Shown one piece after another: positions 3,809 through 64,000 of a stretch of DNA of 64,000 nucleotides (positions within the stretch are counted from its first letter, which is position 1; the number at the start of each line of letters is the position of its first letter). The notes under the pieces were generated by a model, which was not told where the DNA came from, ran no database searches, and saw only the letters and a list, made by a program, of their open reading frames with translations. Position numbers and translations under genes: made by a program. The stretch lies in assembly GCA_025458905.1 (NCBI GenBank), contig JALORN010000014.1:1-64000 (forward strand), in the 5' to 3' direction. This stretch comes from Steroidobacteraceae bacterium. Lineage in GTDB: Bacteria; Pseudomonadota; Gammaproteobacteria; Steroidobacterales; Steroidobacteraceae.

Positions 3809-3859
3809 ACGCCCGCGACATCGATCAACCATAAGAAAGACAGACCTGAGGAGCAGACC

Positions 3860-6413: not shown

Positions 6414-8279
6414 ATGACGATTCTGACCATGGGCATCGTGGCGATGCTGCTGGCCGCCGCAGCAGGCGTCGCAGGCTTCCTCGTCGCGCGTCGCAACGCG
6501 GCGCGGGGCGGGACTGCGCTGGGCGCCCGCCTGCGGGCCGGGCTCGACGTGACCAGCACGAACATCGTGATCGCGGACGAGAACCTGGACATCGTCTACA
6601 TGAACCGGACGGTGGAGTCGATGCTGCGCCACGCGCAGGACGACATCCGCAAGGACCTGCCGGGCTTCGACGTCGACCGCCTGGTCGGCACCAACATCGA
6701 CGGCTTCCACAAGGACCCGTCGCACCAGCGCCGGATGCTGGCGGCGCTCGAGAGGACGTTCGAGTCGCGTCTGTCGCTGGGGGGGCGGACCTTCCGCATC
6801 ATCGCCAACCCGATGAAGGACGCCGCCGGGCGCCGGCTCGGCACGGTCGTCGAATGGCAGGACCTCACCGAGACGCTGGCGCGCGAGGCGCGCGAGCGGG
6901 AGCGCGCCGAGCAGGAGCGGCTGGTGGCGATGGAGAATGCCCGGCTGCGCGCGGCGCTGGACAACGTCACCACCAACGTCATGGTCGCCGACGGCGACCT
7001 GCGCATCGTCTACATGAACCGGACCGTGCAGGACATGATGCGCCAGGCGCAGCCGGACATCCGCAAGGACCTGCCGCACTTCGACGTCGACCGGCTGCTC
7101 GGCGCCAACATCGACGTGTTCCACAGGAACCCGGCGCACCAGCGCAACCTGCTGCCGGCGCTCACCGGCACCTTCCGCTCGACCCTGAAGGTGGGCGGGC
7201 GCTCGATGCAGATCATCGCCAACCCGGTGCGCTCGGCGAGCGGCGAGCGCATCGGCACGGTGGTCGAGTGGGCCGACCAGACCGACGAGAAGCGCGTCGA
7301 GGGCGAGGTCAAGGGGCTGGTCGATGCCGTGCTCGCGGGCGACCTCACGCACCGGATCCCGCTCGACGGCAAGACCGGCTTCATGGCGGCGATCAGCTCA
7401 GGCATCAACACCATCGCCGACAACCTCACGGACCTCGTCAGCCAGGTGAAGGGCGCCGCAGCCGAGGTGCAGCAGGGCACCGGCGACATCGCGCAGGGCA
7501 ACGACGATCTGAGCCGCCGCACCGAGCAGCAGGCTGCGAGCCTCGAGCAGACCGCGGCCAGCATGGAGCAGATGACCTCGGGCGTGACCAGCACGGCGGA
7601 GAACGCGGCGCGCGCCAGCACGCTCGCTGCCGAGGCACGCAATGCCGCCGAGAAGGGCGGCACGGTGGTGCAGGACGCGGTCCGGTCGATGGGCGGCATC
7701 AGCGAGGCGAGCCGCAAGATGGCCGACATCATCCACGTCATCGACGACATCGCCTTCCAGACCAACCTGCTGGCGCTGAACGCCGCGATCGAGGCGGCAC
7801 GCGCCGGCGAGGAGGGCCGCGGCTTCGCGGTGGTCGCGACCGAGGTACGCATGCTGGCGCAGCGCAGCGCGGCCTCGGCCAAGGAGATCAAGGCGCTGAT
7901 CGACGACAGCCTCGCCAAGGTCGAGCAGGGTTCGACGCTCGTGACCAACTCGGGCGCGGTGCTCGAGCAGATCGTCGGCGCAGTCAAGAAGGTGTCCGAC
8001 ATCGTCTCGGAGATCGCCGCCGCGACGCGCGAGCAGTCGGTCGGCATCGACCAGGTCAACACGGCGGTCACGCACCTCGACCAGCTGACGCAGCAGAACG
8101 CGGCGCTGGTCGAGGAGGCATCGGCCGCGAGCCGCTCGATGGCCGAGCAGGCGCGCTCGCTCTACCAGCTGGTGGAGCGGTTCGACACCGGCGCGGCGCG
8201 TGGCGCCGGCCGGCTGGCCGCCGCGCCGACCCTGCGGGCGCGCGCCGAGGCGGATGCACCCCGCGAGCGGGCGGCGTGA
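6414..8279 (+). CDS. Methyl-accepting chemotaxis protein with two tandem Aer2-type PAS domains
   Basis: I chose the ATG at 6414 because a strong GGAGGAGAGAGG site lies 5' of it and the protein then begins with a membrane helix (residues 3-25); the frame is open further upstream. There is no periplasmic domain. Two near-duplicate PAS domains (residues 49-151 and 187-289) share [21 protein letters not shown] and IIANP. Each keeps a His (99, 237) and a Trp (148, 286) 49 residues apart, the spacing of the haem His and oxygen-gating Trp in Pseudomonas Aer2. A HAMP-like stretch and the signalling domain ([20 protein letters not shown]) follow. It has no C-terminal tether. Oxygen sensing is inference. 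Confidence 0.93.
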
Positions 8280-8307
8280 CACGCGGATCCCGGCCGGAAG
8301 CGCAGCG

Positions 8308-9549
8308 ATGAGTCGCCGCAAGATCCAGGTGCTGGTCGTCGACGACTCGCCGGTCGATCGCGAGCTGCTGATCGAGATCATCGGCGCGGAGCCTGACTTC
8401 GAGGTCGCCGGCCAGGCCGCCGATGCCTACGAGGCCCGCGACAAGATCCGCAGCCTCGATCCCGACGTCGTCACGCTCGACGTGTCGATGCCGGGCATGG
8501 ACGGCATCAAGTTCCTGCGCAACCTGATGCGACTGCGGCCCATGCCCGTGGTCATGGTCTCGGTGACCACCGACGAGGGCGCGGCGGTGACGCTCGATGC
8601 ACTGCAGATCGGTGCGGTCGACTTCGTCACCAAGCCCGGCGCGACGGGTCGCAGCTTCGCGGAGTACCGGCGCGAGGTCGCCTCGAAGGTGCGGATGGCG
8701 GCCTACGCGCGCGTCACGCCCTGCGCGGGACCGGCGGCTGGCGCGGCCGCGTCGCAGCCGCGGCGGCTCGCGGAGGTGCTGCCCTTCCCCGGCAGGGGCA
8801 CGGCGGTCGCACCGCCGGAGGGGGGCGCTCCCGCGCCAGGCACCGTCGCGGCGCCGGTACCGGCCGCGCCGTCGTCGTCGCCGGGGCGGGTGAGGCGCGA
8901 GCGCGCCGCGCCCGTCGACCTGATCGCGATCGGCGCGTCGACCGGCGGCGTCGGCGCGATCGAGGCGGTGCTCGGGCAGCTGCCCGTGGACGGACTGCCG
9001 CCGGTCGTCGTCACGCAGCACATCCCGGCGGGATTCAGCCAGAGCTTCGCGCAGCGCCTGGACTCGCAGCTGGAGCTCGAGGTGCGCCATGCCGTCGACG
9101 GCATGCCGATCGTCGCCGGGCACGTCTACATCGCACCCGGCGGCCACCAGTTCGCGGTCGAGCGCGCCGGCGACGGATACGTCTGCCGCGTGACGCGCGA
9201 GCCGCGCGTGAACCTGCACCGCCCGAGCGTGCAGGTGCTGTTCCACTCGGTGGCGAAGCACGCCGGCGCGCGGGCGATCGGCGTGCTGCTGACCGGGATG
9301 GGCGCAGACGGTGCGCAGGGACTCCTGGAGATGCGTCGTGCCGGCGCCTACAACGTCGTGCAGGACGAGGCGACCAGCGTGGTCTGGGGGATGCCGGGGG
9401 CGGCCGCGCGGCTCGGCGCCGCCGACGAGATGCTGCCACTGGGCGAGATCGCGCGCGCGATCGGTGAACTCGTCGTCGCGGGCCGCGACCGGCCGCGCCG
9501 TCGCGTCGGGCGCCGCCGCTCAGCCCGGAGCGACGAGCCGCTCGAGTGA
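8308..9549 (+). CDS. cheB: CheB receptor methylesterase/response regulator (copy 2)
   Basis: Second CheB of the island, 413 residues from the ATG at 8308. That start directly precedes the receiver motif QVLVVDDSPVDREL; the frame is open upstream of it. Receiver phospho-acceptor Asp58 (TLDVSMPGMDG) is followed by a linker of about 65 Pro/Ala-rich residues, longer than in copy 1. The esterase domain has Ser211, His238 and Asp334 all present. It follows the PAS-type receptor by 28 bases, suggesting it serves that receptor. A small gene on the other strand overlaps its last 30 bases. Confidence 0.95.
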   Translation: MSRRKIQVLVVDDSPVDRELLIEIIGAEPDFEVAGQAADAYEARDKIRSLDPDVVTLDVSMPGMDGIKFLRNLMRLRPMPVVMVSVTTDEGAAVTLDALQIGAVDFVTKPGATGRSFAEYRREVASKVRMAAYARVTPCAGPAAGAAASQPRRLAEVLPFPGRGTAVAPPEGGAPAPGTVAAPVPAAPSSSPGRVRRERAAPVDLIAIGASTGGVGAIEAVLGQLPVDGLPPVVVTQHIPAGFSQSFAQRLDSQLELEVRHAVDGMPIVAGHVYIAPGGHQFAVERAGDGYVCRVTREPRVNLHRPSVQVLFHSVAKHAGARAIGVLLTGMGADGAQGLLEMRRAGAYNVVQDEATSVVWGMPGAAARLGAADEMLPLGEIARAIGELVVAGRDRPRRRVGRRRSARSDEPLE

Positions 9550-9819
9550 GGGCGTGCCGTCGGGGCTCCAGCCCCGCTGGCGCAGGCAGGCCGCCACCCG
9601 CGGGTGATGGGCGTCGATGCGGCGGCGCTGCGCCGGGCGACCGCCCATCGCGGTGCGGCAGGCGCGCAGCTCGGCACCGAAGCCGGCGGCGGACGCGATC
9701 GGCGTGTGCTGCACGGCCGCGGCCGGCCCGGCCCGGCCCGTCGCGCAGACCGTACCGGCCGCCGCGACCCACAGCGCCACCAGCGCCGCCCGTGCGGCGC
9801 GCGCGGTCGGGTGGAGCAT
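9520..9819 (-). CDS. Small predicted secreted protein of unknown function
   Basis: 99 residues from the second ATG, which has AGGGG six bases upstream; an ATG two codons earlier (9825) is less well placed. A basic N-terminus and hydrophobic stretch (about residues 8-25, ending TVCA) look like a signal peptide. The remainder is Ala/Arg-rich with two further cysteines (RACRTAM, VAACLRQRGW) that could form a disulfide. The 3' end runs 30 bases into the convergent cheB gene. I recognise no family, and a chance frame cannot be excluded in such GC-rich DNA. Confidence 0.4.
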   Translation of the reverse strand: MLHPTARAARAALVALWVAAAGTVCATGRAGPAAAVQHTPIASAAGFGAELRACRTAMGGRPAQRRRIDAHHPRVAACLRQRGWSPDGTPSLERLVAPG

Positions 9820-9934
9820 GTTCATCCCCTGTCGTTCTCTTTGTGGGGACATCCTGCCAGCGTCGATGCCGATCCGTGGGCGGTGGGGACATAAGCCGGG
9901 CGTCCGGGCACCCGCGCTGCCGACGACGGCGCGC

Positions 9935-10483
9935 TCAGGCCGGGACCCGGGGTTCGCGACGCAGGAAGCGGACCATCTGGATCTCGTCGACGAAGGTCTC
10001 GCCGATGCGGACCGCGGCCGGTTCGCGCGCATAGCCGCGGAAGCCCAGCGAGGCGTAGAGGCGCTGGGCACGCTCGTTGGTCGCGAGCACCGTGAGGCAG
10101 ACCTGGCGCAGGTCGCCGAGCGACTCGGCGCGCACCAGCGCCTCGCGCAGCAGCAGCTTGCCGACCCCCGAGCCCTCGGCCTCGGGCCGGACGAACATGC
10201 GCGAGATCAGCGCCTTGTGCCGCAGCCGCGAGGCGGGCTCGCGCTCGAGGCTGGTGATGCCGATCAGCGCGTCGCCGAGGAATGCGCCGAGCGTGAAGCT
10301 GTCGGGCGCGAAGCGCGTGGGGATCCCCGGGGAAGGCTCATCTTCGGGAGCGGTCCGGAAGAAGTGCCCGTGGCTCGCGAGGCCCTCGCGCCAGAGCGCG
10401 GCGTATGCCGGCCCGTCGCGCGGCTCGAGGCAGCGCAGCAGGGGCTCGGCGGCGCCCGGGCTCGGTGTTTCGGCGGTCCGCAT
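9935..10483 (-). CDS. GNAT family N-acetyltransferase
   Basis: 182 residues. The GNAT fold is shown by the acetyl-CoA-binding strand-loop-helix (SRMFVRPEAEGSGVGKLL, an R/Q-x-x-G-x-G/A-type motif) and by the later LTVLATNERAQRLYASLGF segment, which is the usual motif B with the conserved Tyr-x-x-x-G-F. The substrate is unknown. The C-terminal DEIQMVRFL is typical of the RimI/YjaB-like group. It is divergent from the DUF894-type exporter with 125 bases between starts. No obvious operon partner except, possibly, the small secreted protein 109 bases downstream. Confidence 0.85.
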   Translation of the reverse strand: MRTAETPSPGAAEPLLRCLEPRDGPAYAALWREGLASHGHFFRTAPEDEPSPGIPTRFAPDSFTLGAFLGDALIGITSLEREPASRLRHKALISRMFVRPEAEGSGVGKLLLREALVRAESLGDLRQVCLTVLATNERAQRLYASLGFRGYAREPAAVRIGETFVDEIQMVRFLRREPRVPA

Positions 10484-10608
10484 CGCGACCCAGGATGACG
10501 GAGGACGACGCAGAGTCTAGCGCCGCGCCACGAGGTGGTCGAGGCGCCGGGCGGTGAATGGGTGACGTCGCCTACACAGCTTTGGCAGCCCATGCTAGAA
10601 GATCCGGG

Positions 10609-12285
10609 ATGACCGTCGCGCGCGAGAGCCCTTCCGCCTTCGAACGGTGGCGCAGCGCGACGCTCGCCCCGTTCTCGCACCGCGCGTTCGCGCTGTTCTG
10701 GTGGGCCTCGCTGGTCTCCTCGTTCGGCAGCCTGATCCAGACGGTCGGCGCCTCGTGGCTGATGACCACCATCGCGCCGTCGCCCGACATGATCGCGCTG
10801 GTGCAGACCGCCGGCGCGCTGCCGTTCTTCTTCCTGTCGCTGGTCGCGGGGGCCTTCGCGGACACGCGCGACCGTCGCGCCATCATGATCTTCTCGCAGG
10901 TGCTGATGCTGGTCGCCTCGGCGGTGCTCGCCGGCATCACGCTCGCGGGTGGCATCTCGCCGGCGCTGCTGCTCTGGCTCACCTTCCTGATCGGCTGCGG
11001 CACCGCGATCTTCGCCCCGGCGTGGCAGTCGTCGATCGGCGAGCTCGTGCCGCGCTCGCAGATCCCGTCGGCGGTCATGGCCAACGCGGTGGGGTTCAAC
11101 CTCGCGCGCAGCATCGGGCCGGCGATCGGCGGCCTGATCGTCGCGGCGGCGGGTGCTGCCGTCGCGTTCGTCGTCAACGCGTTCTCGTACGTGGGGATGC
11201 TGGCGACCGTGCTGTGGTGGCGGCCCCAGCGCATCCGCGCAACCCTGCCGCCCGAGGCCCTGGGCACGGCGATCTCGGCCGGCATCCGCTACGTCCGGCT
11301 GTCGCCGCACCTGCTGGCGATCCTGGCGCGCTGCCTGCTGTTCTCGATCCCGATGGCCGCGACGCCCGCACTGATGCCGGTGGTCGCCCGCGACCTGCTC
11401 GGCGGCGACGCGCGCACCTATGGCCTGCTGCTCGGCGGCTTCGGCATCGGCGCGATGCTCGGCGCGCTGTCGAGCGCCGCGCTGCGCAGCCGCTTCACCA
11501 GCGACGCCCTGCTGCGCATCCTCTCGGCGCTGGCGTTCGTCGCGATGCTGGCGAACGGCCAGAGCACGTTCGCGGCGCTGACGCTGCTGGCGCACGTGCT
11601 GGCGGGCTCGACCTGGACCCTCGGCCTCGCCAACTTCAACATCGCGGTGCAGCTGTCCTCGCCGCGCTGGGTGATGGGCCGGATGCTCGCCACCTACCAG
11701 ACCATCGCGTTCGCCGGCATGGCGCTCGGCAGCTGGGGGTGGGGCGTGCTGGCCGAGCGCATCGGGCTGCGCGAGTCGCTGACCCTCGCCGCGTTCTCCG
11801 CGCTGGTGTCGCTGGTCGCGGCCCGCTGGCTGCCGGTCTCGGTGGCGACCCTCGGGTCGCTCGACCCGCACGGCGGTCCCGAGGTCGCGCCGCCGAAGGT
11901 CGAGATCCACCCCGCCTCGGGCCCGATCGTCGTCACCATCACCTACCGGGTGCCGGCGCAGAACGCCGAGCCGTTCATCGACGTCATCAACGAACTCGGA
12001 CGCATCCGCAGCCGCGACGGCGCGCGACGCTGGTCCGTCTGCCAGGACATCGACGACCCGCAGTACTGGGTCGAGCGCTTCGAGAGCCCGACGTGGCTCG
12101 ACTACCTGCGACGACAGCAGCGCATGACCCTCGCCGACGTGCAGGTCCGCGACCGGCTGCGCCAGCTGATCATCGGCGAGCGTGGCACGGTGCGCCGCAC
12201 GATCGAGCGGCCGAGCGGCTCGGAGCCGCTCGGTGCGGTGCACCAGCGCCCCGAGGCGCTCGACGACACGTCCGGCCACTCCTGA
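10609..12285 (+). CDS. Major facilitator exporter of the DUF894 (MFS_3, EntS-like) group
   Basis: Inner-membrane transporter, 558 residues from the ATG at 10609 (an ATG 17 codons earlier is possible). About residues 10-420 hold 10-12 hydrophobic helices with the MFS loop ADTRDRR. After residue 430 a soluble C-terminal domain of roughly 110 residues resembles the antibiotic-monooxygenase-like extension of this family (ITYRVP, RIRSRDGARRW, RFESPTWLDYLRR). The family includes enterobactin exporters; the substrate here is unknown. It is divergent from the acetyltransferase and 50 bases upstream of a racemase-fold enzyme. Confidence 0.87.
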   Translation: MTVARESPSAFERWRSATLAPFSHRAFALFWWASLVSSFGSLIQTVGASWLMTTIAPSPDMIALVQTAGALPFFFLSLVAGAFADTRDRRAIMIFSQVLMLVASAVLAGITLAGGISPALLLWLTFLIGCGTAIFAPAWQSSIGELVPRSQIPSAVMANAVGFNLARSIGPAIGGLIVAAAGAAVAFVVNAFSYVGMLATVLWWRPQRIRATLPPEALGTAISAGIRYVRLSPHLLAILARCLLFSIPMAATPALMPVVARDLLGGDARTYGLLLGGFGIGAMLGALSSAALRSRFTSDALLRILSALAFVAMLANGQSTFAALTLLAHVLAGSTWTLGLANFNIAVQLSSPRWVMGRMLATYQTIAFAGMALGSWGWGVLAERIGLRESLTLAAFSALVSLVAARWLPVSVATLGSLDPHGGPEVAPPKVEIHPASGPIVVTITYRVPAQNAEPFIDVINELGRIRSRDGARRWSVCQDIDDPQYWVERFESPTWLDYLRRQQRMTLADVQVRDRLRQLIIGERGTVRRTIERPSGSEPLGAVHQRPEALDDTSGHS

Positions 12286-54801: not shown

Positions 54802-55776
54802 ATGGACTGGCAGCAGCTGGGCAGGGCCCTGGCGTTCTACGGCCGCTTCGCGGCCAGCTTCACCCAGCCCGGCTACCGGACGCGGCGGCTGCGCTGGCCG
54901 CGCCTCGCGCCCGACTTCCGCGGGCAGCGCTGGCTCGTGACCGGCGGCTCCGGCGGGCTCGGCGCATGGATCGCGACCGAGGCGGCGCGTGCCGGCGCCC
55001 GCGTGACCGTCGCGGCGCGCAGCGCCTCGAAGCTCGAGACCCTGCGCTCGGCGGCACGCGCCGCGGGCATCGACGGGATCGACGCCGAGACCTGCGATTT
55101 CTCGCTGCAGGCCGACACCGCGCGGCTGCTGGGGCGGCTGCGCGACGCGGGTCGCCCGCTCGACGTGCTGGTGAACAACGTCGGCGTCCTCGAGGACGAG
55201 CTGCGGGTCACGACCGAGGGCCGCGAGGCGACGTTCGTGTCGAACCTGCTGAGCCACTACCAGCTCACCGAGGGGCTGGTCCGCCACGGCCTGCTGCGCC
55301 AGCCCGGAGGCCTCGTGATCAACATGAGTTCCGGCGGTGCCTACTTCGTGCCGCTGGCGATCGCAGCGCTGGACGTCACTGACCCGGCGCGCTTCGACGG
55401 CACCACGGCCTATGCGCTGCACAAGCGCGCCCAGCTCGTGCTGAACCGTTACTGGCGCGACACCTACGGCCCGCGCGGCCTGGACTTCTACGTGATGCAT
55501 CCCGGCTGGGTCGACACCCCCGGCGTGCAGCGCTCCCTGCCGCGCTTCCGCGCGCTGCTTCGGCCGCTGCTGCGCGATGCGGCCTCGGGCGGCGACACGG
55601 CCCTGTGGCTCGCGGCCACGCGGCCGCCCCAGGCGCTGCCGGACGGCCTGTGGTTCGACCGCGCGCTGCGCCCGGCGCACGTCCACGAACGGACGAGCGC
55701 CGGCGCGCCCGCGCCGCCGGCGCTCGTCGCCTACCTCGAGCAGGCGCTCGACCGGCTGCCCGGTTCGCGCTACTGA
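54802..55776 (+). CDS. Short-chain dehydrogenase/reductase (DHRS12-like)
   Basis: 324 residues. An N-terminal extension of about 35 residues precedes the nucleotide site TGGSGGLG; then LVNNVGVL, the catalytic Ser in INMSSGGAY and Tyr-x3-Lys in AYALHKRAQ, and PGWVDTPGV. All catalytic residues present. Its 3' end overlaps the convergent hemA gene by 7 bases. Pairing with the acyl-CoA dehydrogenase suggests a lipid or acyl substrate. Confidence 0.88.
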   Translation: MDWQQLGRALAFYGRFAASFTQPGYRTRRLRWPRLAPDFRGQRWLVTGGSGGLGAWIATEAARAGARVTVAARSASKLETLRSAARAAGIDGIDAETCDFSLQADTARLLGRLRDAGRPLDVLVNNVGVLEDELRVTTEGREATFVSNLLSHYQLTEGLVRHGLLRQPGGLVINMSSGGAYFVPLAIAALDVTDPARFDGTTAYALHKRAQLVLNRYWRDTYGPRGLDFYVMHPGWVDTPGVQRSLPRFRALLRPLLRDAASGGDTALWLAATRPPQALPDGLWFDRALRPAHVHERTSAGAPAPPALVAYLEQALDRLPGSRY

Positions 55777-57065
55777 TCGCGGGCGGCGACCTTGGCCGCG
55801 CCCGCGCGCGTATCGGCGCTGCGGCCGGAGACTGCGGTCGCGATCGCGGCCAGCGCCGGGGTCGCGAGCGGCGGCACCACCGCCACCAGCGCCTCGACCA
55901 AGGCGTCGGTCATCGCATCGTCGTGCAGCGGCGAGGGCGTGATCCGTAGCCGCTCGGTGCCGCGCGGCACCGTGGGGTAGTTGATCGGCTGCAGGTAGAC
56001 CGCGTGTTCGCGCAGCAGGCGCTCGGCGACCCGCGTGCAGCGCGCGGAGTCGCCGATCACCAGCGGCAGGATCTGCGCCGTGGTCGGCAACAGCGGCAGG
56101 CGTGCGGCGGCGAGCCGGTCGCGCAGGCCGGCGACCCGCCGGCGCAGCGCCTCGCGCTCGACCTGGCTCGAGCGCAGGTGGCGCACGCTGGCGAGCGCCG
56201 CGGCCGCGACCGCCGGCGGCAGGGCGGTGGTGAAGATGAAGCCGGGCGCGAAGCTGCGGACGAAGTCCACCAGTTCGCGGCGGCCGGTGACGAAGCCGCC
56301 GACCACGCCGAAGCCCTTCCCGAGGCCGCCCTGGACGACGTCCGCCTGCTCGAGCAGGCCGTGTGCCTCGAGCAGCCCGCCGCCCTGCGGGCCGTGCACG
56401 CCGACCGCGTGGGTCTCGTCGACGTAGCTGAGCGCGCCGTGGCGGCGGGCGACCGCGAGCAGCGCGCGCAGCGGCGCGACGTCGCCGTTCATCGAGTACA
56501 GCGACTCGAAGGCGACCAGCTTGGGGCGGGCCGGATCGGCGCGCGCCAGCAGTGCCTCCAGGGCCGCGGCGTCGCTGTGCGGGAAGACCCGGACCTCGGC
56601 GCGGCTGCGGCGGATGCCCTCGATCATCGAGGCGTGGTTGTCGGCGTCGGAGTAGACGATGCAGCCGGGCAGCCGCGACGCGAGCGTCGCCAGCACGGTG
56701 TCGTTGGCGACGTAGCCCGAGGAGAACACCAGCGCCGCCTGCTTGCCGTGCAGCGCGGCGAGCTCGGCCTCGAGCGCGACGATAGGGTCGTGGGTGCCGG
56801 CGATGTTGCGCGTGCCGCCGGCGCCCGCGCCGTAGCGCGCCAGCGCGAGCCGGCTGGCCTCGAGCACCAGCGGATGGCGGCTCATGCCGAGGTAGTCGTT
56901 GCTGCACCAGACGGTGACGGCACGGCGCACGCCGTCGAGGGTCGTGAACGCGACGGGGCCGGGCGCGAGCTCGCGCCCGAGCGCGCGGAAGTGCCGGTAG
57001 CGGGCCTCGCGTCGCAGCCGGTCGAGCGCGTCGCCGAAGAAGCCGTCGTAGTCGAAGCGGTGCAT
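55770..57065 (-). CDS. hemA: 5-aminolevulinate synthase
   Basis: 431 residues. Condenses glycine and succinyl-CoA to 5-aminolevulinate. It is ALAS rather than 2-amino-3-ketobutyrate ligase or AON synthase because it has GAGGTRNIAGT (the threonine that selects succinyl-CoA). Others present: WCSNDYLGM, DADNHASMIEGI (His), YVDETHAVG (Asp), and the PLP lysine in GGLGKGFGVVGG. Last gene of the siroheme/sulfite-reductase operon, 17 bases after hemB. This C4 route is unusual outside alphaproteobacteria. Confidence 0.9.
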   Translation of the reverse strand: MHRFDYDGFFGDALDRLRREARYRHFRALGRELAPGPVAFTTLDGVRRAVTVWCSNDYLGMSRHPLVLEASRLALARYGAGAGGTRNIAGTHDPIVALEAELAALHGKQAALVFSSGYVANDTVLATLASRLPGCIVYSDADNHASMIEGIRRSRAEVRVFPHSDAAALEALLARADPARPKLVAFESLYSMNGDVAPLRALLAVARRHGALSYVDETHAVGVHGPQGGGLLEAHGLLEQADVVQGGLGKGFGVVGGFVTGRRELVDFVRSFAPGFIFTTALPPAVAAAALASVRHLRSSQVEREALRRRVAGLRDRLAAARLPLLPTTAQILPLVIGDSARCTRVAERLLREHAVYLQPINYPTVPRGTERLRITPSPLHDDAMTDALVEALVAVVPPLATPALAAIATAVSGRSADTRAGAAKVAARDQ

Positions 57066-57082
57066 CGCCCGGGGCGCCGCGG

Positions 57083-58039
57083 TCACGGCAGGCCGAGCGC
57101 GCCGGCGAGGCGCGCGCCGTAGGTGACGATGAACGCGGCCCCGGCGCGGCGCATCACGTACCAGCTCTCGAGCAGTGCGGCATCGAAGTCCGCCAGCCCC
57201 TCGCGGGCGAGCAGCGTCAGCCCGGCATACTCGCCGCTGACCTGGTAGGCGCCGACCGGCAGACCGGTGCGAGCGCCGATGCCGGCGATCAGGTCGATCG
57301 AGCTCATGCCGGGCTTGACCATCAGCAGGTCCGCGCCTTCCTCGGCGCAGCGCACGCTCGCCGCGTACGCGTCGCGCGCGCTGCGCACGTCGAGCTGGTA
57401 GCCGCGCCGGTCGCCGTGCTGCGGCGCCGAGTCGGCAGCGACGCGGAACGGGCCGTAGAAGCCGCTGGCGAACTTGCTGCTGTAGCTCATGATCGGCACG
57501 AGTCCATGGCCGGCGGCGTCGAGCGCGGCGCGCAGGTGCGCGACGCGGCCGTCGTTCATGTCGCTCGGCGCGATGCCGTCGGCGCCGGCGTCGGCATAGG
57601 CGCGCGCCAGCTTCGCGAGCTCGGCGAGCGTGCCGGGGAGGTCCTGGCGGCCGCGGGCATCGTGCAGGCAGCAGTGGCCCGAGGCGGTGTGGCTGCAGAG
57701 GCAGGTGTCCACCCAGAGCGTGGCGCGCCCGCCGCTGCGTGCCATCACCGTCTCGATCGCGCGGCCGGCGAACGCGGGGTCGAAGCCGCCGGCCTGCTTT
57801 GCCGCGGGCACGGCGAACAGCATGAACTGGCGCACGCCGGCCTCGAGGTCGCGCGCCACCCGTTCGCCCAGCCGCGCGAGCGGCAGGCGGTGGTTGTCGC
57901 CGAGGCCGGGCACCGCCTCCGGCGCGGAGAGCCCCTCGACCACGAACAGCGGCTGCACCAGCTGCGCGCGGCCGAAGCCGACCTCGGAGACGAGGTCGCG
58001 CAGCGCCGCGGTGGCGCGCAGGCGCTGCAGCCGCTTCAT
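57083..58039 (-). CDS. hemB: Porphobilinogen synthase (5-aminolevulinate dehydratase)
   Basis: 318 residues. Joins two 5-aminolevulinates to porphobilinogen. Zinc-site cysteines in DTCLCSHTASGHCCLHDARG, Schiff-base lysines in SYSSKFASGFYGPF and LMVKPGMSSIDL, all intact; GADGIAPSDMNDGRV is the usual allosteric metal segment. Start overlaps the stop of the hemC-like gene (ATGA). Together with the ALAS gene it supplies porphobilinogen within the operon. Confidence 0.94.
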   Translation of the reverse strand: MKRLQRLRATAALRDLVSEVGFGRAQLVQPLFVVEGLSAPEAVPGLGDNHRLPLARLGERVARDLEAGVRQFMLFAVPAAKQAGGFDPAFAGRAIETVMARSGGRATLWVDTCLCSHTASGHCCLHDARGRQDLPGTLAELAKLARAYADAGADGIAPSDMNDGRVAHLRAALDAAGHGLVPIMSYSSKFASGFYGPFRVAADSAPQHGDRRGYQLDVRSARDAYAASVRCAEEGADLLMVKPGMSSIDLIAGIGARTGLPVGAYQVSGEYAGLTLLAREGLADFDAALLESWYVMRRAGAAFIVTYGARLAGALGLP

Positions 58040-59610
58040 GCCAGCAGCTCGGCGCGGAACTGCGCGGACGAGAGGAACGGGCGGACGTTGGCGGCACGCT
58101 CGCCGAGCGTCGCGCGGATCACGCGCAGGGTGTTGCCCGGTCCGCAGCCGTGCAGCGCCGCCTGCCCGAGCCCGGGCATGGCGCGCAGGTACTCGAGGAA
58201 CTGCGAGCCACTGTTCCAGAAGAAGTGGGTGCGATCGTGCACCGCCAGGGGCGGACGAACCCGCTCGAGGCGGTAGGTCGGCAGCAGCTCGGCACGACCC
58301 GGGTCGAAGCCCGAGTCGTGCGACAGCTTCACCCAGCGATCCAGCGCCGGGAAGAGATGCCGCACGTCGGCAGCCGCGGTCTCCCCGAGGCTCTCGTCGG
58401 AGCCGTTGACCCAGATGCCGCGCGCGGCGAGGCGGCGCCAGGTGGCGAGGCCCGGCGTCCACACGCACTGGCGAGGATGCGGGATCCAGTGCGCGGGCAG
58501 CGCCTCGGCGCGCGCCACCAGCAGGCCGGTCGCCGCGTCGGTCGCGGGCGCCGTCGACTCGAGCGGCACGCGCCGGAAGGGATCGGCGCCCGGGCCGTCG
58601 CCGCACCACAGGGCGGCAGCGCCGCGCGGGCGCGGCAGCGGCTCGTGGCGCCGCAGTCCCACGCGGTCGAGGCGCTGGCCGGCGTACTCGCCGCCGACGA
58701 ATTCGACGTCGCCGAAGCCGAGGTCAAGCGCGGTGATGCCGACCGGCGTGTCGTCGTCGCCGAGCGCGGCGAGGTGGGCACGCTCCTCGCGCACCAGGCG
58801 GAAGGTGGCGGTGTCGTTGACCGCCGCCAGCAGCGCGTGCAGGTCGGCGCGGTCGCGGCGCACCTCGATCGCGAGCGCGCCCTGGCCCGGCGCGGCGGGG
58901 TTCGCGGTCAGGGGCACCACCATCAGGCGGCATCGCTCGAGCGCGGCGCGGACCCGCGCCCGCGTCGCGTCGAACTGCGGCGCGGGCGCGAGCAGCATCC
59001 GATCGAGCGCCGCCTTGGCGATCACCACCGCATGGCCGGCACCGGCGAGCAGCGCGCCGAGACGCCGCTCGATGTCGCCCCGCACCGGCGGGAACTCGAC
59101 CGCGCGCGGGCGGAACGGCAGCGCCCACTGCAGGAAGGGCCGCAGGTTGCTGCGCCGCCGCTCCGAGCAGGACAGCACGCGCAGCACGCCGTCGCCCTCG
59201 CCGGCGAGCAGGCGCTCGAGCGCCGTGCGCGAGAACACCAGCACGTCGCGCGCGTCGGCGCGCGGCAGCGTCGCGGCGACCCCCGTGGTCGCGCGCGCGG
59301 GCAGCGGCAGGTCCTTCCAGGAGTGCACCGCGAGGTCGATCGCGCCGGCATCGAGCTGGTCGTGCAGGTGAACGGCGAAGCCACCGCCGCGGTTGATCGT
59401 GCCGATGGGCGTCGCGGCGTGCGCCGGTAGCGGCACGTCGCCGGCCTCGGCATAGGGCAGGTCGGCCGGCGCTGCACTGAACGCATAGCGCAGTGCGAGC
59501 CCCGGGTGGGCGCGCGCGAGCGCGTCCCCGACGAGTACCGCCTGGATCCGCGACAGGGCGCTGCCGCGCGCGCCGATCACGAGGCGGTGGCTCGCCCCTG
59601 GCCCGCTCAC
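58036..59610 (-). CDS. hemC: Hydroxymethylbilane synthase-like protein fused to a partial uroporphyrinogen-III synthase
   Basis: 524 residues from a GTG that overlaps the cysG stop (GTGA). Residues 8-310 are a porphobilinogen deaminase: VIGARGSALSRIQA, catalytic Asp100 in HSWKDLP, basic SCSERRRSNL, VRGDIERRL and PAAPGQGALAIE. Where the dipyrromethane-cofactor Cys should be (GGCQVPIG in E. coli) the sequence reads GDDDTPVG, with Asp286 at the Cys position. Residues 355-524 resemble the second half of HemD (VWTPGLATWRRLAARG, THFFWNSGSQFLEYL, GCGPGNTLRVIRATLG). The family fit is good; the chemistry is uncertain without the cysteine. Confidence 0.83.
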   Translation of the reverse strand: MSGPGASHRLVIGARGSALSRIQAVLVGDALARAHPGLALRYAFSAAPADLPYAEAGDVPLPAHAATPIGTINRGGGFAVHLHDQLDAGAIDLAVHSWKDLPLPARATTGVAATLPRADARDVLVFSRTALERLLAGEGDGVLRVLSCSERRRSNLRPFLQWALPFRPRAVEFPPVRGDIERRLGALLAGAGHAVVIAKAALDRMLLAPAPQFDATRARVRAALERCRLMVVPLTANPAAPGQGALAIEVRRDRADLHALLAAVNDTATFRLVREERAHLAALGDDDTPVGITALDLGFGDVEFVGGEYAGQRLDRVGLRRHEPLPRPRGAAALWCGDGPGADPFRRVPLESTAPATDAATGLLVARAEALPAHWIPHPRQCVWTPGLATWRRLAARGIWVNGSDESLGETAAADVRHLFPALDRWVKLSHDSGFDPGRAELLPTYRLERVRPPLAVHDRTHFFWNSGSQFLEYLRAMPGLGQAALHGCGPGNTLRVIRATLGERAANVRPFLSSAQFRAELLA

Positions 59611-61058
59611 GACGCGCGCTCCAGCGGAGCGCGGCCGGCAGCCACGGCGAGCGGCTGCGGTGCGCCGGCGAACCAATGCAGCTCGGCGGCGAGCGCCGCG
59701 GCCTCGCCGACGATCATGATCGTCGGCCCCGCGAGTCCAGGGTCGGGCGGCCCTGCCGCGAGCTCGCCGAGGGTGCTGGTGAGCACGCGCTGCTGCGGCC
59801 GCGTGGCGTGCTCCACCAGCGCGACCGGCGTCGCCGCCGGCCGGCCGGCGCGCAGCAGCGTGCGCGCCGAGTCGCGCAAACGGGCACGGCCCATGTAGAT
59901 CGCCAGCGTGTCGTCGCCGGCGCCGTGCGCGGCGAGCCCGTCGCCGGCCGCGTCGTCGGCCCGCCGCGCCGTGAGCAGGCGGGCGCCGGCGGCGTTGCCG
60001 CGATCGGTGAGCGGGATGCCCGCATAGGCCGCCGCGCCGACCGCCGCGGTGATGCCGGGCACGACCTCGTACGGGATGCCCGCCGCACGCAGCACCCGCA
60101 GCTCCTCGGCGCCGCGGCCGAACACGAACGGATCTCCGCCCTTGAGGCGCACCACCGTGAGGCCCTCGCGCGCCAGCGCCACGAGCCGCGCGTCGATCTC
60201 GGCCTGCGGTACCTGGGCACCGCCGCCCTGCTTCGCGACCGGGATCCGCCGCGCGTCGCGGCGCACCAGCGCCAGCACGCCGTCGGACACCAGGCCGTCG
60301 TGCACCACGACGTCCGCCTCCTGGATCGCCCGCAGCGCGCGCAGCGTCAGCAGTCCCGGGTCGCCGGGGCCCGCGCCGACCAGGAGCACCCGGCCGCGCG
60401 CCGGCGCGGTCGCATCCGACGCCGGACTCGATGCCACGAGCGCGCGCTCGAGCGCTGCGTCCGCCTCGGACTCGCGCCCGGCGCGCACCAGGCTCGCCAC
60501 CGGCCCGGCGAGCGCATCGCCGTAGAAGCGGCGCCGGGCGGCGGCGTCGGGCAGGGCGGCGACGATGCGACGCCGCGCGCGCGCGAGCACGCGCGCCAGC
60601 GCGCCGAAGGACTCGTCGATCGCGGTCTCGAGCTTCTCGCGCACCAGGCGCGCGAGCATCGGGGCGGTGCCGGCGCTCGAGATCGCGATCACCAGCGGCG
60701 AGCGGTCGACGATCGCCGGCACGATCGCGCTCGACAGCTCCGGGTCGTCGACCACGTTGACCGGCAGGCCGGCGCGTTCGCAGGCGGCCGCCACCTCGGC
60801 GTTGACGGCGCGGTCACCCGTGGCGGCGACCACGAGTCGCTGGCCGCCGACCATGGCGGGCTCGAACCGCGCCTCGCGCCAGGCGAAGCGGCCGGCGAGC
60901 GGCGGCGAGGACAGGGCCTCGCCGAGCGCGGGCGCGACCACCGTCACGTGCGCGCCGGCCTCGAGCAGCAGGGCCAGCTTGCGCGAGGCGACCGCACCGC
61001 CGCCGACCAGGAGCACCGGCCGGCTGCGCAGGTCGAGGAACAGCGGGAAGTAGTCCAT
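59607..61058 (-). CDS. cysG: Siroheme synthase (SirC/SirB bifunctional dehydrogenase-ferrochelatase plus SUMT)
   Basis: 483 residues. N-terminal domain FPLFLDLRSRPVLLVGGGAVASRK is the NAD-dependent precorrin-2 dehydrogenase/ferrochelatase, with ISSAGTAPMLARLVREKLE at the regulatory serine region. The C-terminal methyltransferase has VGAGPGDPGLLTLRAL and RLKGGDPFVFGRGAEE. Where E. coli reads LTHRDYAQ this has LTDRGNAAG. It makes siroheme from uroporphyrinogen-III. Starts 15 bases after cysH and overlaps the hemC-like start, so it is the hinge between the sulfur and tetrapyrrole halves. Confidence 0.93.
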   Translation of the reverse strand: MDYFPLFLDLRSRPVLLVGGGAVASRKLALLLEAGAHVTVVAPALGEALSSPPLAGRFAWREARFEPAMVGGQRLVVAATGDRAVNAEVAAACERAGLPVNVVDDPELSSAIVPAIVDRSPLVIAISSAGTAPMLARLVREKLETAIDESFGALARVLARARRRIVAALPDAAARRRFYGDALAGPVASLVRAGRESEADAALERALVASSPASDATAPARGRVLLVGAGPGDPGLLTLRALRAIQEADVVVHDGLVSDGVLALVRRDARRIPVAKQGGGAQVPQAEIDARLVALAREGLTVVRLKGGDPFVFGRGAEELRVLRAAGIPYEVVPGITAAVGAAAYAGIPLTDRGNAAGARLLTARRADDAAGDGLAAHGAGDDTLAIYMGRARLRDSARTLLRAGRPAATPVALVEHATRPQQRVLTSTLGELAAGPPDPGLAGPTIMIVGEAAALAAELHWFAGAPQPLAVAAGRAPLERAS

Positions 61059-61073
61059 GGGCCGCGCCGCGGG

Positions 61074-61844
61074 TCAGCCTTCGAGGCCGTGCAACCCGCA
61101 TTCGCGCTTCACGCCGTTGAAGCGCGTCAGCTCCGCGTCGCCGGCCTCGGCGAGCGTGCGGGTGGAATGCCAGTCGCCGATCGAGACGTACCCCTTGTCC
61201 CACAGCGGGTGGTAGGGCAGGCCGTGCGCCTTCAGGTACAGGCCGACGTCGCGGTCGCTCCAGTCGACGATCGGGTGGAGCTTGAAGCGGCCATCGAGGC
61301 GCTGCAGCAGCGGCAGGCCGCGGCGCGTCGAGGACTGGGCGCGTCGCAGGCCGGAGAACCAGGTCGCGACGCCGAGCTCGCGCAGCGCGCGGCGGAACGG
61401 CTCGAGCTTCATGATCTCGTTGTACCGGCCGAGCCCGTCGGCGCCCTGCTCCCAGAGCCGGCCGTGGCGCGCCTCGAACTCCGCGGCCGACAGCGGCGCG
61501 CGGTAGATCCGCAGGTCGAGGTCGAGTCGCCGGCGCAGTTGCTCGGCGAACTGCAGCGTCTCGGGGAAGAGATACTGCGTGTCGACCATGACCACCGGGA
61601 TCCGCGGGTCGACCTGCGTGACCAGGTGCAGCGCCACCGCGGCCTGGGCGCCGAAGCTCGACGACAGCACGAACGGTCCCGGCAGGTTGGCGAGCGCCCA
61701 CTCGATGCGCGCCGCGGCGGTCAGGGGCCCGAGCTGGCGCGACGCCGCCTCGAGGCCCACGGCATCGAGGGCCTGGTCGTCGGCGGTGCCCTCGACCGGG
61801 GCGTCGCCGCCGCTGCGCATCGCGGTGCGCGCCGGCGCGGTCAT
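61074..61844 (-). CDS. cysH: PAPS reductase
   Basis: 256 residues. Reduces 3'-phosphoadenylyl sulfate to sulfite. PP-motif and VDTQYLFPETLQFAE are present, and the catalytic cysteine is the ECGLH near the C-terminus. No CC-x80-CxxC cluster motif is found, so it is the PAPS-type, not the iron-sulfur APS reductase. ATG overlaps the cysI stop (ATGA). Confidence 0.94.
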   Translation of the reverse strand: MTAPARTAMRSGGDAPVEGTADDQALDAVGLEAASRQLGPLTAAARIEWALANLPGPFVLSSSFGAQAAVALHLVTQVDPRIPVVMVDTQYLFPETLQFAEQLRRRLDLDLRIYRAPLSAAEFEARHGRLWEQGADGLGRYNEIMKLEPFRRALRELGVATWFSGLRRAQSSTRRGLPLLQRLDGRFKLHPIVDWSDRDVGLYLKAHGLPYHPLWDKGYVSIGDWHSTRTLAEAGDAELTRFNGVKRECGLHGLEG

Positions 61845-63556
61845 GCCGCAGCCCCCGCGTCGATCGGGCCGGACGGCCAGAGTCGGTGCACGAAGTCGCC
61901 GAAGCGTTCCCCGGGCTGGCGGGCGCGTGCCCAGCGCGCGAACAGGGCGTCGATCTCGGCGAGGATCGCCGCTTCGTCGAGGTTCTCGCGGTGCAGGCGG
62001 TTCATCCGCTGGCCGCGCGCATCGCCGCCGACGTAGAGGTTGTAGCGGCCAGGGGCCTTGCCGATCAGCGCGACCTCGGCGAGCTGCGGTCGCGCGCAGC
62101 CGTTCGGGCAGCCGGTCATCCGCGCGAGCAGGGGTTCGCCGGCGAGACCGTTGCGCTCCAGCAGGCGCTCGAGGTGGCCGACGAAGCTCGGCAGGTAGCG
62201 CTCCGCCTCGGCCATCGCCAGCGGGCAGGTGGGCATGGCCACGCAGGCGAGTGCGTCGAGGCGCACCGGCGAGGCGCGCTCGTGCAGGTCGAGGCCGTGC
62301 TCGCGCAGCAGGGCCTCGATCCCGGCGCGTGCCGCCGGCGCGACGTCCGCGATCACGAGGTTCTGGTTCGCGGTGATGCGGAAGTGCCCCTGGTGGATCG
62401 CGGCGATGCGGCGCAGGCCGGTGCGCCAGGGCGCGCCGTCGCGGTCGGCGATGCGGCCGGCGGGGATCCGCAGCGTCACCTGCCACAGGCCGTTCTCGCC
62501 CGCGTACCAGCCGAAGCGGTCGCCGGAGCCGGTGAAGTGGAAGGGGCGCGGTGGCGCGAGCGCGCCGCCGAGGCGTCGCGCCAGCTCCTCGTGGAACCAC
62601 GGCAGGCCGCGATCGTCGATCGTGTACTTGAGGCGCGCGTGCCTGCGGTTGGTGCGGTCGCCGAAGTCGCGCTGGATCCCGACCACGGCCTCGCCGACCT
62701 CGAGCAGGCGCTCGGGCGGCAGGAAGCCGATCACGCTGCCGAGCCGCGCATAGGTCGCCGGTTCCCCGTGGGTCGTGCCCATGCCGCCACCGACCGTCAG
62801 GTCGAAGCCGACGATGCGGCCCGCCTCGACGATCGCGATGAAGCCGAGGTCCTGCGAGAACACGTCGACGTCGTTGACCGGCGGCAGCGCGATCGCCGAC
62901 TTGAACTTGCGCGGCAGGTAGGTGGGGCCGAGGATCGGCTCGGACTCCTCGCCGGCGCCTGCGTCCACCGGGGTCGGGCCCGCGGCCGAGTCGACGTACT
63001 TGCGGCCGTCGAGCCAGATCTCGTAGTAGGCGCGGCTCCTGGGCAGCAGGTGCTCCGAGAGCCGGCGCGACCAGTCGAGCACCTCGGCCTCGAGGGTGCT
63101 GCCGCCGGCGTGGCTGCTGGCCGCGACGTTGCGGTTGACGTCGCCGCAGGCCGCGATGGTGTCGACCAGCGCGGCGTTCATCGCGGCGATGGTCGCCTTC
63201 AGCTCGCGCTTCACGACGCCGTGCACCTGGAAGGCCTGGCGGGTCGTCAGGCGCAGCGTGCCGTTGGCGAACTCGTCCGCGATCGCGTCCATTGCCAGCC
63301 ACTGCCGCGGGGTGGCCGCACCGCCCGGCAGGCGCGTGCGGATCATGAAGCTGTAGGCGGGCTCGAGCTTCTGCTGGCGGCGCTCCTCGCGCAGGTCGCG
63401 GTCGTCCTGCTGGTAGCTGCCGTGGAACTTGATCAGCTGCGTGTCGTCGTCGCGCAGCGCGCCGGTCAGCGGGTCGGCGACGCTCTCGGCGAGCGTGCCG
63501 CGCAGCAGGCGGCTCGCGGTCTTGATCTTCTCGACCGGGGAGGGAGGGGCGCTCAT
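61841..63556 (-). CDS. cysI: Sulfite reductase haemoprotein (beta subunit)
   Basis: 571 residues, as in E. coli (570). Six-electron reduction of sulfite to sulfide. The siroheme-[4Fe-4S] ligands are in CVAMPTCPLA and TGCPNGCARPQ. Others include RLTTRQAFQVHG, DVNRNVAAS and the VGGGMGTTHGEP segment. It lies 66 bases after cysJ. Confidence 0.95.
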   Translation of the reverse strand: MSAPPSPVEKIKTASRLLRGTLAESVADPLTGALRDDDTQLIKFHGSYQQDDRDLREERRQQKLEPAYSFMIRTRLPGGAATPRQWLAMDAIADEFANGTLRLTTRQAFQVHGVVKRELKATIAAMNAALVDTIAACGDVNRNVAASSHAGGSTLEAEVLDWSRRLSEHLLPRSRAYYEIWLDGRKYVDSAAGPTPVDAGAGEESEPILGPTYLPRKFKSAIALPPVNDVDVFSQDLGFIAIVEAGRIVGFDLTVGGGMGTTHGEPATYARLGSVIGFLPPERLLEVGEAVVGIQRDFGDRTNRRHARLKYTIDDRGLPWFHEELARRLGGALAPPRPFHFTGSGDRFGWYAGENGLWQVTLRIPAGRIADRDGAPWRTGLRRIAAIHQGHFRITANQNLVIADVAPAARAGIEALLREHGLDLHERASPVRLDALACVAMPTCPLAMAEAERYLPSFVGHLERLLERNGLAGEPLLARMTGCPNGCARPQLAEVALIGKAPGRYNLYVGGDARGQRMNRLHRENLDEAAILAEIDALFARWARARQPGERFGDFVHRLWPSGPIDAGAAA

Positions 63557-63622
63557 CGCGGGGCTTCCGTGCGTCGGGACCGGCGGCCCGCCGCAGGCGC
63601 GGGACCGGCCCTCGGGTGGGGT

Positions 63623-64000
63623 TCAGTAGACGTCGCGTGCGTAGCGGCGGTCGGCCAGCATCTGGTCGACGTAGGCCCGCGCCGCGTCGGCGTCGCGGCC
63701 GCCGTGCCTGCGCACCACCTCGACCAGCGCCGCGTGCACGTCGGGCGCCATCTTCTGGGCGTCGCCGCAGACGTAGACGTGCGCGCCGCCGTCGAGCCAG
63801 CGCCACAGCTCCGCGCCGCGCTCCGCGATGCGCTGCTGCACGTAGACCCGCTGCGGCGGGTCGCGCGAGAACGCGACGTCCATGCGGTGCAGCGCGCCGC
63901 GCTTCAGCGCCGCGAGCCACTCGGCCTGGTAGAGGAACTCGTCGTCGAAGTGGCGCGCACCGAAGAACAGCCAGTTGCGGCCGGCCGCGCCGGATTCCTC
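63623..64000 (-). CDS. cysJ: Sulfite reductase flavoprotein (alpha subunit), C-terminal part
   Basis: Frame is open to the window edge; 125 codons are visible, the 5' end lies outside. NADPH-ferredoxin reductase-like end: LFFGARHFDDEFLYQAEW, HVYVCGDAQKMAPDVHAAL and the C-terminal RRYARDVY that matches CysJ. First visible gene of the operon. Confidence 0.94.
   Translation of the reverse strand, partial: EESGAAGRNWLFFGARHFDDEFLYQAEWLAALKRGALHRMDVAFSRDPPQRVYVQQRIAERGAELWRWLDGGAHVYVCGDAQKMAPDVHAALVEVVRRHGGRDADAARAYVDQMLADRRYARDVY

Follow-up and report, generated by a model that had tools for sequence, protein, structure and literature searches.

We identified, in a Steroidobacteraceae genome, a seven-gene block that probably represents an operon devoted to siroheme, carried by a bacterium without haem synthesis of its own, in which a fused porphobilinogen deaminase-uroporphyrinogen III synthase would be active on a non-covalent primer despite having lost the cysteine that anchors its cofactor. 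The block lies at one end of the window, i.e. the whole stretch of 64,000 nucleotides that was analysed. A sequence-only reading had placed seven packed minus-strand genes here in the order cysJ-cysI-cysH-cysG-hemCD-hemB-ALAS, which is borne out by the sequence and by domain assignments, as follows:

63623..64000, minus strand: cysJ, flavoprotein subunit of sulfite reductase, of which the C-terminal 125 amino acids lie in the window (TIGR01931, positions 474-597 of 597)
61841..63556, minus strand: cysI, haemoprotein subunit of the siroheme enzyme sulfite reductase (TIGR02041, 795.1 bits, cut-off 756.55)
61074..61844, minus strand: cysH, phosphoadenylyl-sulfate reductase (NF002537, 263.7 bits, cut-off 154)
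59607..61058, minus strand: cysG, siroheme synthase, methyltransferase plus dehydrogenase/ferrochelatase (NF007922, 526.1 bits, cut-off 400)
58036..59610, minus strand: hemCD, porphobilinogen deaminase-uroporphyrinogen III synthase fusion, 524 amino acids, GTG start (PF01379, 105.2 bits)
57083..58039, minus strand: hemB, porphobilinogen synthase, 318 amino acids (PF00490, 305.6 bits, cut-off 24.6)
55770..57065, minus strand: hemA (ALAS), 5-aminolevulinate synthase, 431 amino acids (TIGR01821, 550.4 bits, cut-off 338.55)

The cysJ frame extends beyond the window edge to an in-frame ATG near contig base 65452, corresponding to a protein of ~609 amino acids (upstream part read from L023). Both halves of CysG are present, with matches to PF00590, PF13241 and PF10414, and HemB additionally scored 296.6 bits against NF006762, barely below the cut-off of 297. 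The junctions have the same values as those reported earlier: 66 bases separate the cysJ stop from the cysI ATG, ATGA overlaps link cysI to cysH and hemCD to hemB, a GTGA overlap links cysG to hemCD, and gaps of 15 and 17 bases lie between cysH and cysG and between hemB and the ALAS gene, respectively. Scanning 11 kb revealed no terminator-like site at any operon junction, the sole such site being located within the hemCD gene (shuffle mean 1.7), and neither Rfam families nor tRNA genes were found on scanning the window. Judged from sequence, the seven genes are likely to form one transcript. In the pathway that they would encode, ALAS would convert glycine and succinyl-CoA to 5-aminolevulinate (ALA), HemB would convert ALA to porphobilinogen, the HemC-HemD fusion would join four porphobilinogens and close them to uroporphyrinogen III, and CysG would complete siroheme for use by CysI.

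Siroheme-type loci organized around the same HemC-HemD fusion were identified in 37 genomes of the order, including that of the window, and follow two layouts: cysJIH-(cysG)-hemCD-hemB-(ALAS)-(cysG), and cysG-(cysK)-short GluTR-hemCD-hemB-hemL. The gene set of the window recurs in G036 and G235 as cysJIH-hemCD-hemB-ALAS-cysG, with cysG moved to the other end; related forms are found in G033 (cysJIH-hemCD-hemB-cysG, lacking ALAS) and G267 (cysIH-hemCD-hemB, clipped by a contig end). The search for the gene order in relatives, proposed earlier as a check, recovered the set but not the exact order, which, with cysG between cysH and hemCD, was seen only in the window genome. Absence of the order from all close relatives, named earlier as a refutation, therefore does not hold in substance. 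Early tetrapyrrole genes next to cys genes, previously regarded as unusual, are a recurrent arrangement within this order, and since the same set stands together in G036, G235 and the contig-cut G267, their grouping is beyond chance. A cys gene is present in 32 of the 37 loci, the upstream side of the other five being ended by the contig, and inspection of all 37 revealed no hemE or hemN. Locus type was set from neighbouring genes, except for five contig-end-cut loci (G222, G206, G176, G209 and G157) typed as siroheme by sequence kinship and because their genomes gave no HemE match, and for G197 and L039 (no hemE seen nearby), typed as haem by kinship; as kinship coincides with the missing cysteine, these seven do not count as independent evidence.

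That the block arose through binning or assembly error in a single metagenome is scarcely credible. The window genome is a bin of 109 contigs, and the fusion found no match in 23 same-genus relatives, but the window contig matches six others from the bin in GC content and five in tetranucleotide make-up, and four single-contig genomes (G033, G064, G104 and G120) carry siroheme-type loci whose fusions have lost the same residues. The siroheme reductase family NIR_SIR was matched in 36 of the 37 siroheme-type genomes (all except G038, 82% complete) and in none of eight same-genus relatives of the window genome. Among these eight, HemC was not found in G001, G004, G007 and G017, nor were HemD and GluTR in G001 and G007.

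The HemC domain of the window fusion scored above the PF01379 cut-off of 22.1 bits and below that of the TIGR00212 equivalog (111.3 bits, cut-off 164). An AlphaFold model of the fusion (pLDDT 88) gave 1ypn as the best Foldseek match (E 1.9e-20), and the top 32 matches were all HMBS, pointing to a deaminase fold. No sequence match to HemD (PF02602) was detected in the fusion protein. When the C-terminal 215 residues were modelled alone (pLDDT 72), however, the top eight Foldseek matches, 1wd7, 3d8t and 3mw8 among them, were uroporphyrinogen III synthases, at modest values (E 3e-4 to 3e-3, TM 0.3-0.4). Because of these matches the protein, formerly described as a deaminase/partial HemD fusion, most likely comprises a complete HemD joined to HemC. 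Within its clade, the window fusion has diverged furthest (end branch 0.82), with a dN/dS of 0.56 against G036, a distant pair. Among the 11 close siroheme-type pairs computed, dN/dS ranged from 0.08 to 0.31, indicating purifying selection.

In textbooks, the deaminase step of tetrapyrrole synthesis is characterised by a dipyrromethane bound through a thioether. In HemC of E. coli, this cofactor is reported to be bound to Cys242 (PMC7242693, PMC8561815). The absence of this cysteine is the most surprising feature of the fusion, and one that was overlooked in the sequence-only reading. Pairwise alignment to E. coli 1ah5 places Asp286 of the window fusion at Cys242 and Asp179 at Asn151; in the multiple alignment the window clade has a gap at Cys242, such that the placement of Asp286 derives from the pairwise alignment. 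Cys242 and Asn151 are missing from all 34 complete siroheme-type fusions and present in 20/20 haem-type fusions and 41/41 ordinary HemC sequences (E. coli and 40 of the 71 ordinary loci among the 80 loci listed); Lys59 is likewise missing from all 34, and present in 20/20 haem-type fusions and 33/41 ordinary HemC sequences. With three partial siroheme-type fusions included, none of 37 has a cysteine in the Cys242 column. Conversely, the catalytic Asp84, together with Lys83 and Arg131, 132, 149, 155 and 176, is kept in all 34 fusions, and Arg11 in 33, the sole miss being a gap in G145.

These patterns suggest that the fusion is catalytically active. We propose that the chain would be grown from a pyrrole primer, either porphobilinogen or bound bilane, that the conserved arginines hold non-covalently, and that the bilane may then be passed directly to the fused synthase domain. 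Binding of the bilane product by apo-HMBS is reported to be tighter than that of porphobilinogen (PMC9714363). Nevertheless, since Arg131 and Arg132 mutants unable to bind the cofactor are reported to be inactive (PMC3945110), the cofactor seems hard to dispense with. No cysteine-less HMBS, nor an operon of this kind, was found among the matches listed for open-licence PubMed Central papers, as represented by their titles and the starts of their abstracts.

The main rival is that the fusion keeps a covalent dipyrromethane on another residue, a rather unlikely alternative. For the window clade the best candidate would be Cys148, at the place of E. coli Ser128, a position that touches the cofactor and is listed as a dipyrromethane contact (PMC3945110); in the other clade it would be a cysteine at the place of Ala78. 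The Ser128 column holds a cysteine in 4/5 members of the window clade and 4/29 of the other (0/20 haem-type fusions, 0/41 ordinary HemC), and the Ala78 column in 0/5 and 22/29, respectively, and in none of the 61 other sequences. Moreover, all five members of the window clade share Cys227 of the window protein, and in G145 and G211 the loop stretch contains a cysteine at another position. A search across the deaminase parts of the 34 siroheme-type fusions nevertheless found no column with cysteine in all of them; G033 lacks the Ser128-column cysteine, and G178 has a single cysteine in its whole deaminase part. The loss of Asn151 and Lys59 along with Cys242 speaks more for an altered mechanism than for a shift of the anchor.

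It is improbable that the HemC domain has ceased to be a deaminase, with an unrelated, unrecognised enzyme joining porphobilinogen and only the synthase half in use. Such decay would account for the low TIGR00212 score and for the loss of a residue otherwise present in 61/61 comparison sequences, but not for the retention of the substrate-binding arginines and of Asp84 and Lys83, nor for the dN/dS of 0.08-0.37 for the deaminase part alone in the same 11 close pairs. Furthermore, the search of the loci covered known pathway genes, and these suffice for the pathway.

On the fusion tree, the siroheme type requires two origins, each accompanied by the losses of Cys242, Asn151 and Lys59, and a single siroheme-type clade is opposed by the AU test (p 0.00044). 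This tree was built without the loop and RGN columns and left out the partial G133, G216, G157 and G216b, as well as L037 and L038, which lie on the same contigs as G129 and G110. Returning to the non-covalent primer, a fuller version of this account, tentative and perhaps somewhat short of an even chance, holds that the deaminase makes bilane without covalent dipyrromethane, starting from a free pyrrole and handing its product (perhaps an aminomethylbilane) to the fused synthase, and that the anchor was lost twice, each time at a switch from a haem to a siroheme operon, perhaps under low flux.

Consistent with a role restricted to siroheme, the proposed search for second hemC and hemD copies and for a GluTR (C5) route found none in the window genome (85.8% complete): its single PF01379 match is hemCD, and HemD (PF02602), GluTR (PF05201) and HemE (PF01208) gave no matches. 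The 100% complete G036 had the same outcome for all four profiles. Because GluTR has no match, ALAS appears to be the sole ALA route in the window genome, in whose gene content nothing points to a haem branch. The missing part of this genome may hold a second HemC, and the sole-copy argument is carried by more complete relatives: the fusion is the only PF01379 match in 34 of the 37 siroheme-type genomes, the exceptions being G033 and G110, which carry a second, ordinary HemC, and G157, whose sole match is a 51-position fragment at the end of another contig.

HemE was without a match in 31 of the 37 siroheme-type genomes. The remainder comprise G033, with an ordinary HemE, G064, where the match is partial and weak (64 bits), and G181, G186, G168 and G189, whose UroD bears a twin-arginine leader (read by eye). 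The contigs carrying the latter agree in composition with the rest of their bins; these four were set aside as counter-examples, the leader being taken to mark an exported protein. In G181, G186 and G189 a separate PF02602 protein adjoins the exported-type UroD, and the fused synthase is thus not the sole UroS-like protein in every genome. In a search covering six siroheme-type genomes together with G034, PF02602 was absent from G000, G036, G038, G050 and G034 and matched two proteins in G033. G197 carries a cysteine-bearing fusion, yet no HemE was found in this 80% complete genome. AhbD was above its cut-off in none of 39 genomes, 37 of them siroheme-type, and haem-copper oxidase genes are present in 35 of these 37. 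With HemE mostly absent, AhbD nowhere above cut-off, and siroheme reductases and haem-copper oxidases near-universal, the block most likely makes siroheme alone, and its carriers would have to obtain haem elsewhere.

The opposing view, that the block feeds a general tetrapyrrole pool including haem and that its cys neighbourhood is incidental, is very unlikely. The oxidase genes do indicate that haem is in use, and four genomes have a full-length, though export-leadered, UroD in addition to the ordinary one of G033; the HemE and AhbD searches, on which an ordinary haem supply was rejected, together with the cys-rich, hemE- and hemN-free loci, argue against it. The earlier proposal that the operon is a self-contained source of siroheme, reserved for sulfate assimilation, finds support in the comparative evidence from HemE, GluTR and recurrence.

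The block resembles cysJIH and cysG of E. coli in its sulfite reductase, PAPS reductase and siroheme synthase genes; in E. coli the cys genes lie apart from hemC-hemD, which is located at 3989-3991 kb beside hemX, hemY and cyaA. The window fusion shares with E. coli HemC (1ah5/1pda) the fold (Foldseek E ~2e-20), Asp84, Lys83 and the binding arginines, and differs in lacking Cys242. Siroheme-only clusters exist in clostridia. Uroporphyrinogen genes without HemE are reported in Clostridia, Desulfovibrio and archaea (PMC3004389), which the siroheme-type genomes resemble in having uroporphyrinogen III genes without late haem genes. The archaeal clusters are, however, proposed to feed haem via ahb-nir (PMC3004389), whereas in siroheme-type genomes AhbD is not above cut-off and the genes are joined to assimilatory sulfate reduction. 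The same fusion architecture occurs in Leptospira, in the hemACBLENG operon with HemKR (PMC11426443), and both activities have been reported for the fusion of L. interrogans (PMC8698207). In records from Bdellovibrionota and Leptospiraceae, sister fusions adjoin GluTR, hemL, hemE and mostly hemB and hemN; compared with these haem-type sisters, siroheme-type loci have cys genes and cysG in place of hemE and hemN, and their fusions lose the three residues whose cysteine the sisters keep. If natural enzymes do without this cysteine, the need for the cofactor becomes testable, with the cysteine-bearing sister fusions as natural controls.

These operons also mark respiring bacteria apparently unable to make haem that keep a private siroheme supply, in some of which ALAS replaces GluTR and GSAM. 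This suggests that a need for siroheme alone can suffice to keep the early pathway alive. In a profile scan of neighbouring genes, CysB scored 434.2 bits, just below its cut-off of 436, and another neighbour scored above the cysK cut-off.

On the minus strand, a predicted seven-gene operon combines sulfite reduction genes with early tetrapyrrole genes, and is laid out with its flank as follows:

past the window's right edge to 55770, minus strand: cysJ-cysI-cysH-cysG-hemCD-hemB-ALAS
58036-59610, minus strand: hemCD, a fusion of porphobilinogen deaminase (HemC) and uroporphyrinogen III synthase (HemD), 524 aa
53507-55776, plus strand: acyl-CoA dehydrogenase-like and short-chain dehydrogenase-like frames (named by eye), converging on the operon; the latter and the ALAS stop overlap by seven bases

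Family scans bore out the identity of all seven genes and the six junctions, read from the sequence, match the values given by the sequence-only reading, confirming its seven-gene arrangement. The contig extends beyond the window to 71162; the cysJ frame runs to about 65.45 kb, with divergent CysD-like and CysNC-like frames upstream. Across 11 kb scanned, no terminator-like site fell at an operon junction, the sole match lying within hemCD (shuffle mean 1.7).

Queried with the fusion protein, 60 relatives gave long-form homologues in five genomes (G033, G034, G036, G038 and G050), and an order-level search with a seven-row profile found such homologues in 50 of 296 genomes. To read the neighbourhoods in these genomes and in nine named records (L037-L045, among the matches listed), 14 pathway genes, initially named by eye and later checked by family scans, served as tblastn queries. 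Two kinds of loci emerged. The haem type (GluTR-hemCD-(hemB)-(hemL)-hemE-hemN) was seen in 13 genomes of the order, in records assigned to Bdellovibrionota and Leptospiraceae, and in two further records that are unplaced; it resembles the Leptospira operon hemACBLENG, in which, according to PMC11426443 and PMC8698207, HemC and HemD form one bifunctional protein. Of 20 haem-type loci, 18 contain a recognised hemE; none was found in L039, on a contig of 6.4 kb, or in G197. Between hemL and hemE, the G034 locus also carries a histidine kinase and a response regulator. The siroheme type, found in 37 genomes, contained neither hemE nor hemN in any locus read. Of the 37 loci, 32 include a cys gene and the remaining five are interrupted by contig ends. 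One form reads cysG-(cysK)-short GluTR-hemCD-hemB-hemL, adjoining cysH and a cysB-like gene; the other reads cysJIH-(cysG)-hemCD-hemB-(ALAS)-(cysG). ALAS is present in the loci of the window genome (G000), G036 and G235, while the G267 locus stops after hemB and G033 lacks ALAS at the locus and encodes GluTR elsewhere. The window's operon form recurs among relatives, but cysG was seen between cysH and hemCD in G000 alone. Together, the relatives' loci and gene content support the earlier interpretation of a dedicated siroheme supply. Very short glutamyl-tRNA reductases (about 290-310 aa), giving only partial PF05201 matches, were also seen in the siroheme operons of L021 (about 8000-8940) and L022 (about 3650-4500).

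Roughly 300 residues of an AlphaFold model of the window fusion (pLDDT 88, pTM 0.89) match solved HMBS structures; for the last 215 residues, modelled separately (pLDDT 72), the top eight matches are all UroS, with modest scores. In the deaminase half, HMMER alignment places Asp286 opposite E. coli Cys242, the residue that, according to PMC7242693 and PMC8561815, binds the cofactor through a thioether and is the pulling point of chain growth. We aligned 34 siroheme-type fusions, 20 haem-type fusions and 41 ordinary HemC sequences (E. coli numbering). Cys242 and Asn151 are retained in 61/61 haem-type fusions and ordinary HemC and in 0/34 siroheme-type fusions; Lys59 is found in 33/41, 20/20 and 0/34 of ordinary, haem-type and siroheme-type sequences, respectively. 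PMC3945110 reports that Lys59 mutation alters activity and that Asn151 contacts the chain in simulations. Conserved in all 34 siroheme-type fusions are Asp46, Asp84, Lys83, Arg131, 132, 149, 155, 176 and Gln198, along with Arg11 in 33 (a gap in G145). Including three partial fusions, none of 37 has cysteine at the Cys242 column; G145 and G211 have one elsewhere within the loop stretch. The haem-type fusion of L044 (bacterium DBS1-3.bin82) keeps the cofactor cysteine and has Met at Lys83, where the other 94 rows have Lys.

We reconstructed a quick tree of 58 rows, assigned to types before its inspection and with loop and RGN columns excluded. The window clade (G000, G033, G036, G235 and G267) adjoins the cysteine-keeping L044 (support 100), and the remaining 29 siroheme-type rows lie elsewhere; a single clade of all 34 was rejected (AU p 0.00044, on a quick tree with long branches). 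The tree calls for two origins of the siroheme-type fusion, both with the same residue losses; what is new is that the cofactor cysteine was lost in parallel, in association with siroheme operons. dN/dS was 0.08-0.31 in 11 close siroheme-type pairs computed, 0.05-0.20 in four haem-type pairs and 0.56 in the distant pair G000-G036; judged from sequence, the siroheme-type genes are not decaying.

In the simplest explanation, the fusion would need no thioether anchor to perform the entire conversion of porphobilinogen to uroporphyrinogen III, and the unanchored product could pass to the fused synthase. A non-covalent primer is not absurd, since apo-HMBS binds bilane better than porphobilinogen, as reported in PMC9714363. 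The main rival has the cofactor anchored at another residue: Cys148, at the position of the cofactor contact Ser128, occurs in 4/5 of the window clade, and a cysteine at the Ala78 position in 22/29 of the other clade. Neither is universal among siroheme-type fusions, and G178 has only one cysteine in its entire deaminase half. Were activity without a bound cofactor shown, the account of the HMBS enzyme would change.

In G000 (4.28 Mb, 85.8% complete), the window's own HemC is the only PF01379 match, and PF02602, PF05201 and PF01208 had no match. ALAS is therefore the sole ALA-forming route seen there, and HemE is unseen. The window contig agrees with six other bin contigs by GC and with five by tetranucleotides. 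Among same-genus relatives, searches found no fusion (0/23, G001-G023), HemC (0/4), HemD or GluTR (0/2), HemE (0/3) or NIR_SIR (0/8), and COX1 was present in 2/2; they look like respiring organisms that do not make tetrapyrroles. Because G000 is larger and more GC-rich than two sampled relatives, its placement in the genus may be loose.

The fusion is the sole PF01379 match in 34 of 37 siroheme-type genomes. Two genomes encode an ordinary HemC in addition: in G033 it lies on the single chromosome, and in G110 it lies on a 5.2 kb contig, possibly foreign to the bin, together with frames resembling cobA and hemD (L200:501-2656, G110:C42). In G157, whose fusion is truncated, the profile matches just one fragment of 51 positions, at the end of another contig. 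HemE had no match in 31 of 37; G033 has an ordinary HemE, G064 a weak, partial match, and G181, G186, G168 and G189 a UroD with a twin-arginine leader (by eye). AhbD exceeded the cut-off in 0/39 genomes searched (37 siroheme-type) and matched below it in 39/39 and in 14/14 controls, one control exceeding it. A haem-copper oxidase was found in 35/37 siroheme-type genomes (not in G206 or G216) and NIR_SIR in 36/37 (not in G038, 82% complete) and in 12/13 haem-type genomes. These tallies indicate that siroheme-type bacteria, which encode the early pathway and a siroheme enzyme, use haem without a visible ordinary route. The leader-bearing UroD lies beside a TonB-dependent receptor and a PF02602 HemD in G189 (L202:6925-11436), G186 (L203:5343-10099) and G181 (L205:8959-13569), the PF02602 protein having an apparent signal peptide (by eye) in the latter two; in G168 (L204, near 9431-10660), UroD was seen alone. 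Judged from sequence, this group appears to be an exported set for handling porphyrinogens, carried by bacteria that lack ordinary haem synthesis.
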